Origin: Candidatus Alloscybalousia intestinigallinarum
Lineage (GTDB): Bacteria > Bacillota_I > Bacilli_A > RF39 > UBA660
Direction: 5' to 3'
Length of the DNA stretch: 51,797 nucleotides
NCBI GenBank assembly: GCA_018716115.1
Contig: DVKF01000020.1
Span: 1-51,797, forward strand
Below are positions 5,043-11,806 of the stretch, one piece after another. The notes below the pieces were generated by a model. That model saw only the letters and a list, made by a program, of their open reading frames with translations, ran no database searches and was not told where the DNA came from. Position 1 is the stretch's first letter. Each line of letters starts with the position of its first letter. Position numbers and translations under genes: made by a program.

Positions 5043-5076
5043 AAAAAAGCATCTTCTTTTTTTAGGAACATGCTTC
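5043..5076 (-). terminator. terminator of the alpha-CTD-like gene
   Basis: AAGCAT (5047-5052) pairs with ATGCTT (5070-5075); the minus strand continues with six T. It overlaps the stop codon of the gene ending at 5075. Confidence 0.65.
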
Positions 5077-5290
5077 AATACTTGTATTTTTTCCTGTTCA
5101 AATCCAAACTTTCTAACTGTAATTTTACTTTAATTTGTGCGATTTCAGAAGTTGAAAAGCCATTCTCTTTCAGTGTCTTTTTTTGACATTCCCATAATTG
5201 TCTTACCGTATAAATATCTAAGCGATGAAGGTCGGCTACGATTTCTTTTTCTAGACCTAAACTTTCGATATTGTCTTTTAGTTTTACCAT
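5075..5290 (-). CDS. stand-alone RNA polymerase alpha-CTD-like helix-hairpin-helix protein
   Basis: The 71-residue protein reads like an isolated C-terminal domain of RNA polymerase alpha. It begins with IESLGLEKEIVADLHRLDI, comparable to the alpha-CTD pattern I..L.LS.R....L...GI, then TVRQLW (TV.EL), then GFSTSEIAQIKVKLQ (LG.KS..EI...L) and ESLDLN. The second hairpin has no Gly-Lys, so DNA binding may differ from true alpha. Small proteins of this kind could bind DNA near UP elements or bind sigma or regulator partners. It is preceded by a 35-codon ORF whose stop overlaps its start by 7 bases, with an extended -10 promoter about 150 bp upstream, and followed by a terminator. The fold assignment is an inference from sequence pattern. 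Confidence 0.6.
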   Translation of the reverse strand: MVKLKDNIESLGLEKEIVADLHRLDIYTVRQLWECQKKTLKENGFSTSEIAQIKVKLQLESLDLNRKKYKY

Positions 5291-5391
5291 AAATTACCTG
5301 TACTTACCCACATTTTGGTTTGGTAAAGCTTCTTATTATTTATCGGCGACATCAGAATGGAAACACTTTGGTTCATGCCCACTTTTATCAT
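5284..5391 (-). CDS. small ORF of 35 codons coupled to the alpha-CTD-like gene
   Basis: This ORF is too short for routine gene calling. It starts at ATG 5391 after an AGGGGG site nine bases upstream and ends with TAA at 5284-5286, 7 bases inside the next gene. The peptide begins MIKVGMNQ and ends VSTGNLW; it is basic and polar, without a membrane segment or signal peptide. Placement between a good extended -10 promoter and a real gene, plus the stop/start overlap, suggests either a genuine microprotein or a translated leader controlling the downstream gene by coupling. No homologue is recognised. Coding status is uncertain. Confidence 0.45.
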   Translation of the reverse strand: MIKVGMNQSVSILMSPINNKKLYQTKMWVSTGNLW

Positions 5392-5444
5392 TTTACTATT
5401 CCCCCTATTCGTTATATTAAGACAAGTGCTTTCTTTATGAGCTT

Positions 5445-5453
5445 ATTATACCA
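5445..5453 (-). promoter_or_regulatory. extended -10 promoter for the small ORF and alpha-CTD-like gene
   Basis: TGGTATAAT on the minus strand (5445-5453), i.e. TATAAT with the TG extension. No strong -35 is visible. A start about 7 bases downstream would give a leader of about 45 nt before the small ORF. Confidence 0.6.
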
Positions 5454-5489
5454 TTTTTTTGGAAAAAAAGGTAAGTATTTTATTCCTAT

Positions 5490-5551: not shown

Positions 5552-6688
5552 TTAAGAAGCCTTATTTTTCTTAGATTTCTTTGAGGAATTAACTATTTTA
5601 GGAAATAAAAAACAGTTTTCTTCATGAGAGTTAATCACGCCGATTGCCTGAAGATAAGAATAGATAATTGTCGTGCCGACAAATTTCATTCCTCTTTGAC
5701 TGAGATCTTTAGATATTTGATCAGATAGTTCTGAATGGGTTTTGTGTGTTTCGTAAATGGTTTTTCCTTTCGTAAAGGTAAATAAATATTGACGAAAGCT
5801 TCCAAACTCTTGAGTAATTTTTTTAAATATTTGAGCGTTAATGATCGTTGCGGTAATTTTTCTACGATTACGAATAATCCCTGAGTTTTTCATTAGCGAT
5901 TCTATTTTATCTTCTTGATACTGGCTAATTTTTTCAAGATCAAAATGATCGAAGGCTTGGCGAAAATTTTCTCTTTTGTTTAGTACACATTCCCAAGATA
6001 AACCAGCTTGGAAAGATTCTAGAATTAGCATTTCAAATAGGTAATTTTCTTCAAAATTAGGTATACCCCATTCTTCATCGTGATATTTAATGTATCGTTC
6101 ATTTTCTAAGTTGCACCAACTACAGCGAGAAATAGGTGGTTTTTCTTGTTTTTTGTTTTTTTCTTTAGGTAAATATAATTTACTCATATCGACACCCTCT
6201 AAGGTTAATAGTTTACTCTTTACTTCTAATCCTCCAGCATAGCCGGTTAGATTTCCTGTTACCCCTACTACTCGATGACAAGGGATAATAATCATGATGG
6301 GGTTATGCCCTATCGCATTACCAACTGCTTGACTAGACATTGAATTCTTATGTTGTTTTTTCGCTATCTCTTTCGCAACGTCTCGATAACTGACAGTTTT
6401 TCCATAAGGAATAGTCAAGAGATATTGCCATACTTGTTTTTGAAAATCAGTCCCCTGGGGAAGTAAATTTAAGGATTCATAACTAGGATTTTTCTGTTCA
6501 AAATAATCGTCTAGCCATTTTTTCGTTGCTTGAAAAACAGGCAACTCTTCTTTAACAGTAGCTTTTCTTGGAACATAGTATCGACTATTTTCTAGTTGTA
6601 GACTTAAAAGATGTGTACCATCACTTTCTAGAATAATTTTTCCTAGTGGCGAGAGGTAATTACATTGATATCTTTCAATTTTCTTCAT
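5552..6688 (-). CDS. fusion of methylguanine-DNA methyltransferase (Ogt) and 3-methyladenine glycosylase I (Tag)
   Basis: The 378-residue product joins two alkylation repair enzymes. Residues about 1-165 are an O6-methylguanine-DNA methyltransferase, with the acceptor-cysteine motif IPCHRVVG near residue 136 and YGKTVSYRDVA upstream. After a Lys-rich linker, residues about 188-370 are Tag: RCSWC at the start and YHDEEWG supply the first zinc ligands (Cys and His), LILESFQAGLSWE is the family core, and INSHEENC supplies the last His and Cys. All key residues of both enzymes are present. The start is ATG 6688 with AGGTGA upstream; GTG at 6700 would fall in that site. The two activities repair different methylation products, so the fusion supplies both in fixed ratio. 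Confidence 0.9.
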   Translation of the reverse strand: MKKIERYQCNYLSPLGKIILESDGTHLLSLQLENSRYYVPRKATVKEELPVFQATKKWLDDYFEQKNPSYESLNLLPQGTDFQKQVWQYLLTIPYGKTVSYRDVAKEIAKKQHKNSMSSQAVGNAIGHNPIMIIIPCHRVVGVTGNLTGYAGGLEVKSKLLTLEGVDMSKLYLPKEKNKKQEKPPISRCSWCNLENERYIKYHDEEWGIPNFEENYLFEMLILESFQAGLSWECVLNKRENFRQAFDHFDLEKISQYQEDKIESLMKNSGIIRNRRKITATIINAQIFKKITQEFGSFRQYLFTFTKGKTIYETHKTHSELSDQISKDLSQRGMKFVGTTIIYSYLQAIGVINSHEENCFLFPKIVNSSKKSKKNKAS

Positions 6689-6720
6689 TGCTTCATTCAC
6701 CTGTATTTAGATATCATCTA

Positions 6721-11619: not shown

Positions 11620-11737
11620 TTTGACACAAGCATTAAATTTACCTGTGGGAATTTTTTGAATAAAAAATCAGTCAATATTTCAGACTGAAAGTATATTTAA
11701 AGTTCGAATGGTTCGAACAGATTCACAAAGTGGTGCC
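11620..11737 (-). repeat. tRNA-Thr 3' flank (right repeat, intact copy)
   Basis: Direct-repeat partner of 9853-9937. It comprises the last bases of tRNA-Thr, the 17-nt palindrome GTTCGAATGGTTCGAAC (11702-11718), the terminator and a TTTGACACAA 10-mer. Relative to the left copy it has about 35 extra bases between the terminator and the 10-mer. Confidence 0.55.
11661..11689 (-). terminator. terminator of tRNA-Thr
   Basis: Stem TCAGTC (11668-11673) with GACTGA (11683-11688), then six T on the minus strand, about 40 bp past the tRNA 3' end. Confidence 0.85.
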
Positions 11738-11806
11738 GACTATAGGGATCGAACCTACGACCTACGCGTTACGAGTGCGTTGCTCTACCAGCTGAGCTAA
11801 GTCGGC
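11731..11806 (-). tRNA. tRNA-Thr (anticodon CGT)
   Basis: A 76-nt cloverleaf with CCA encoded. Acceptor arms are GCCGACT and AGTCGGC, the D arm contains AGCTCAGCTGGTAGAGC, the anticodon loop is CTCGTAA, and the T loop is TTCGATC. It reads ACG codons. The base pair closing the anticodon loop is A-C rather than a Watson-Crick pair. A good promoter lies upstream and a terminator downstream, so it is a single-gene unit. Its 3' flank is duplicated at 9853-9937. Confidence 0.97.

Follow-up and report, generated by a model that had tools for sequence, protein, structure and literature searches.

A 51,797-nucleotide stretch of DNA from Candidatus Alloscybalousia intestinigallinarum, analyzed here as a whole and referred to as the window, encodes a 71-amino-acid protein that, judging from its predicted structure, has the fold of the C-terminal domain of the RNA polymerase alpha subunit (alpha-CTD) and is a free-standing relative of that domain. 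The alpha-CTD is a hub for bacterial transcription activation and has usually been studied within RpoA. The reading we favor, to which we assign a probability of roughly one half, is that the protein is an alpha-CTD-derived accessory factor of RNA polymerase that makes no DNA contacts and often works with a CarD/CdnL-type protein.

The locus lies on the reverse strand (Table 1). As in the original prediction, an extended -10 element stands upstream of both ORFs, and a 35-codon ORF with its own AGGGGG site, nine bases ahead of its ATG, runs into the start of the 71-aa ORF. The promoter element is accompanied by a weak -35 and is missing from the list of a consensus scan because that -35 is poor. 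The AGGGGG recurs in the nearest relative (G001), with AAAGGAG in its place in a second close relative (G007), and the AGGTA of the weak ribosome-binding site of the 71-aa ORF is common to both. The preceding gene (5552-6700, reverse strand) encodes a single protein in which an O6-methylguanine-DNA methyltransferase is fused to a 3-methyladenine glycosylase. On the 3' side follow a gene for a 160-aa protein that has a hydrophobic stretch near its N-terminus, then cdaA, and a gene that, from its position, looks like cdaR. No Rfam family matched at the locus at E-values up to 1. Elsewhere in the window, a listed ORF at 11708-11800 (forward strand) runs antisense to the tRNA gene at 11734-11806 (reverse strand) and probably encodes no protein.

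Table 1. Sequence features of the locus of the alpha-CTD-like protein (positions in the window)
Feature	Position	Strand	Basis or remark
Extended -10 promoter element TGG-TATAAT	5445-5453	-	Read directly; also present in G001 and G007
AGGGGG Shine-Dalgarno of the 35-codon ORF	5401-5406	-	Read directly
35-codon ORF MIKVGMNQSVSILMSPINNKKLYQTKMWVSTGNLW	5284-5391	-	Stop runs into the start codon of the 71-aa ORF
Weak ribosome-binding site AGGTAATTT directly 5' of the 71-aa ORF	5291-5299	-	
71-aa stand-alone alpha-CTD-like protein	5075-5290	-	Homologues, dN/dS, fold

The 71-aa ORF is a genuine gene and evolves under strong purifying selection, with a dN/dS of 0.03-0.08 among the three closest genomes (the window's own, G000, together with G001 and G007). 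A search of 195 genomes recovered homologues at 36-94% identity, all from uncultured Bacilli, after two weak matches (L018 and L019) had been discarded as spurious. A profile built from 18 members was run against 386 genomes of the family to which the organism belongs; 37 of them carry a free-standing copy, not counting the weakest matches, which lie in longer frames. The close homologues are open frames of 65-99 aa and are not fused to an alpha-NTD. PADLOC gave no defence link for the gene, and a phage or viral origin was rejected, as phage records and viral contigs yielded no match and PHROGs nothing convincing.

The identification as an alpha-CTD relative draws on profiles and models. The AlphaFold2 model of the 71-aa protein (pLDDT 85.6) retrieved only RNA polymerase alpha-CTDs among the top 40 Foldseek hits (TM about 0.8), and a VIA structure comparison scored alpha-CTDs at Z values of up to 12.7. 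The family profile matches solved structures of the B. subtilis RpoA-CTD at E-values of about 2e-4 and also RpoA-sized ORFs outside the family. A Pfam scan of the 71-aa protein itself did not match RNA_pol_A_CTD (PF03118), and its relative L005 lies above the gathering cut-off of that model (27.6 bits vs 23.8). In NCBIfam, 16 of the 18 members match an RpoA model, below its cut-off; since only RpoA models are offered there, the family of free alpha-CTD-like proteins is unnamed in that resource. The 71-aa protein is stand-alone, as predicted, and the genome also carries an intact rpoA with a canonical CTD. A pairwise comparison of the protein with this RpoA-CTD gave no signal above shuffled sequences. 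With neither the pairwise comparison nor the protein's own Pfam scan showing the relationship, it takes the profile and the structural model to establish it. Compared with RpoA-CTD (PF03118; B. subtilis 1z3e/3gfk), the family has the same whole-domain fold and a weak but specific profile similarity, whereas it differs in forming a separate protein of 65-75 aa without alpha-NTD, in having lost the DNA-contact residues, and in a new invariant Trp and a DLNKKxY tail. That the protein is a generic helix-hairpin-helix protein that merely resembles an alpha-CTD, with another role such as in RNA metabolism or repair and a CarD link that reflects co-regulation, seems to us quite improbable: some members do match other small helical or helix-hairpin-helix Pfam domains weakly (AF1548-like_C, SAM, RAD51D_N), but RpoA models dominate in NCBIfam and RpoA-CTDs in PDB sequence and structure comparisons.

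Several longer or rearranged alpha-CTD-like proteins were encountered alongside the family. Two more stand-alone proteins, both with tandem repeats, come from the same family of Bacilli: one of 166 aa with two profile matches, encoded upstream of an rlmN-like gene (L097, G057), and one of 247 aa that seems by eye to contain about three repeats (L156, G327). Between an infB-like and a truB-like gene lies a gene for a 148-aa protein whose N-terminal part is alpha-CTD-like (L155, G355), and one rpoA product (L098 346-1665, G170) seems to hold two tandem C-terminal alpha-CTDs, the second without the NLGRKS motif.

The original prediction held that a free alpha-CTD could compete for UP elements or regulators. 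In E. coli, R265 and N268 are required for DNA binding and UP-element use (PMC11434276). In the 71-aa protein, however, R265 corresponds to E16, N268 to A19, G296 to S46, K298 to S48 and S299 to E49, with all five canonical residues retained in the RpoA of the same genome. Across the 18-member alignment there is no Arg at position 265 and no Gly at 296, N268 is kept in 6 members, and position 299 is Glu or Gln in 17. Because the DNA-contact residues have been replaced, binding of UP-element DNA by the 71-aa protein is unlikely, and we consider competition of this kind very improbable, notwithstanding the alpha-CTD fold and a mild net positive charge (+1 to +6 across members).

A different surface appears to have been retained. 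In 41 sequences, there is almost no variation at W33, R/K37, L40, K41, I50, L59, D63, L64, N65, K66/67 and Y69, which include a near-invariant C-terminal tail (D-L-N-K-K-x-Y), and we infer from this pattern that the conserved face is a protein-contact face. Positions 37, 65 and 67 coincide with positions of the "287 determinant" (alphaCTD residues 285-288, 315 and 317), which contacts an activator in E. coli (PMC7192510). This overlap, together with the strong selection on copies in genomes without CarD, would also suit a decoy that titrates regulators contacting the alpha-CTD (Spx-like, CRP-like or sigma region 4) independently of CarD. Such a decoy is unlikely in our judgment, as it leaves the CarD linkage described below unexplained and the residues of the face are not those of E. 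coli. In the accessory-factor reading that we prefer, the protein would have given up its DNA-binding surface and kept another for contacts with proteins.

The strongest clue from genomic context, a CarD neighbor, can be seen only in relatives and not from the window. A CarD/CdnL-type gene lies immediately upstream of the 71-aa-type gene at 22 of 42 loci (21 of 41 distinct proteins). The two are -29 to +19 nt apart, as measured to the first in-frame start codon, and often overlap. The neighbor is a CarD: it exceeds the cut-off of PF02559 (CarD_CdnL_TRCF) in L006 and L008, and its AlphaFold2 model has a TM of 0.81 to a solved CarD chain and a Foldseek match to CarD at E 6.6e-8. Both genes occur in 21 of the 386 genomes, the alpha-CTD-like gene without CarD in 16 (of 37 that bear it), CarD without the alpha-CTD-like gene in 67, and neither in 282; this amounts to a co-occurrence of 21/37 vs 67/349 (Fisher p = 2.4e-6, which is optimistic because the genomes are related). 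The adjacency in many genera is independent of this p-value. Two CarD genes (L127 in G061 and L009 in G014) are apparently disrupted by stops or frameshifts, which points to a continuing loss of CarD in the family or else to assembly errors.

Like CarD/CdnL proteins of Thermus, mycobacteria and Myxococcus (PF02559), the neighbors have the complete CarD fold, including the N-terminal domain that binds RNA polymerase. Unlike them, they do not have the wedge Trp (Thermus W86), which is missing in all 38 in-family CarDs and present in all 5 from outside the family; more than 95% of CarDs keep this minor-groove wedge (PMC4593161). There is a precedent in the CarD-CarG pair of Myxococcus, where the second module of a CarD-type protein binds a dedicated partner (PMC4374960), but CarG is a zinc-associated protein of ~170 residues and not an alpha-CTD. 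No natural fusion of CarD and alpha-CTD was seen among the inspected long-frame matches (L097, L155 and L156), and a literature search, with most subscription-journal papers outside its scope, found no stand-alone alpha-CTD partner of CarD.

The window copy is an orphan, a CarD-less descendant. Its genome, G001 and G007 are 91-95% complete and have no CarD of this type, so CarD is not an obligatory partner, and the sister of their clade, in G353, is CarD-linked (tree support 98/95). Throughout the tree, where the shortness of the protein leaves many forks unresolved, CarD-linked and orphan copies are interleaved, and the link has thus been gained or lost several times. We envisage the 71-aa protein as an accessory factor of RNA polymerase that operates through contacts with other proteins. 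Many relatives would produce it together with the CarD/CdnL-type protein, probably its partner in promoter complexes; in the lineage of the window it would act without CarD through another contact with RNA polymerase or a regulator. The gene, its selection and fold, the residue loss and the linkage and co-occurrence with CarD are demonstrated steps of this scheme, from which we infer that the protein binds CarD, RNA polymerase or sigma directly and affects transcription. A more specific version, which we put forward only tentatively and hold to be rather less likely than its converse, is an unnamed two-protein accessory module of RNA polymerase in uncultured Bacilli, in which a CarD without its wedge residue would pair with an alpha-CTD without its DNA-binding residues, the two acting together on the promoter complex by protein contacts only.

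The 35-codon ORF has to be considered apart from the protein's role. The original prediction regarded it as a coupled leader peptide, an interpretation that its length, frame and sequence, unconserved in the two closest relatives, do not bear out. In G001 the small ORF has 25 codons, 24 of them common with the window's ORF (3 synonymous and 4 nonsynonymous substitutions, too few to judge selection) and a stop one codon later, and in G007 it has 31 codons of unrelated sequence; upstream of the remaining loci there is no counterpart. Only the Shine-Dalgarno and the start codon persist in both relatives, and the overlap of stop and start with the 71-aa gene occurs in the window alone among the three. 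The length by itself is ordinary, as an ORF of at least 25 codons begins in 32% of shuffled leaders. In three other genomes of the genus (G013, G011 and G010), a promoter-like -10 runs directly into the gene with no small ORF between. The spacing from the -10 to the Shine-Dalgarno-bearing start is 59-63 nt in the three genomes with a small ORF, and that to the gene's own start is 52-61 nt in the three without, although the upstream genes differ among the compared loci and homology of the leaders is unproven.

The 35-codon ORF is probably a non-conserved leader ORF that arose, most likely, as a side effect of changes in the leader. Its Shine-Dalgarno and start would occupy the position at which relatives begin the gene, and on the simplest reading the old start was parted from the present one by ~100 nt that are not conserved. 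The start codon left behind would open a short frame. Repeats or mobile elements were considered as the source of the leader and rejected, with only weak short matches elsewhere in the same genome. It is possible, if doubtful, that the ORF is instead translated as a functional leader, through which synthesis of the 71-aa protein is coupled or attenuated at the level of translation: its Shine-Dalgarno and start keep a fixed distance from the -10 in three genomes despite turnover of the ORF body, a leader ORF with a strong Shine-Dalgarno arises by chance in 1.7% of cases, rarer than the length alone (two such ORFs, this one included, occur among the window's 144 ATG-initiated ORFs of 25-60 codons), and its stop overlaps the downstream start. 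Against such a function stand the restriction of this overlap to one of the three genomes, the unconserved frame and length, a leader RNA whose predicted folding does not go beyond chance (z +0.7 to +1.2), and the weak ribosome-binding site that the 71-aa ORF retains for itself. Any effect of the small ORF would possibly be independent of its sequence and fall on translation of the downstream gene, not be exerted through a peptide.

If the accessory-factor reading is correct, conserved free alpha-CTDs that lack DNA contacts, often encoded alongside a CarD that lacks its wedge, would represent a new way to build a regulator of RNA polymerase. The clade that carries them is a large group of uncultured Bacilli with small genomes, in which regulation seems to be almost unstudied, and the alpha-CTD-like protein and CarD would offer a directly testable protein pair.
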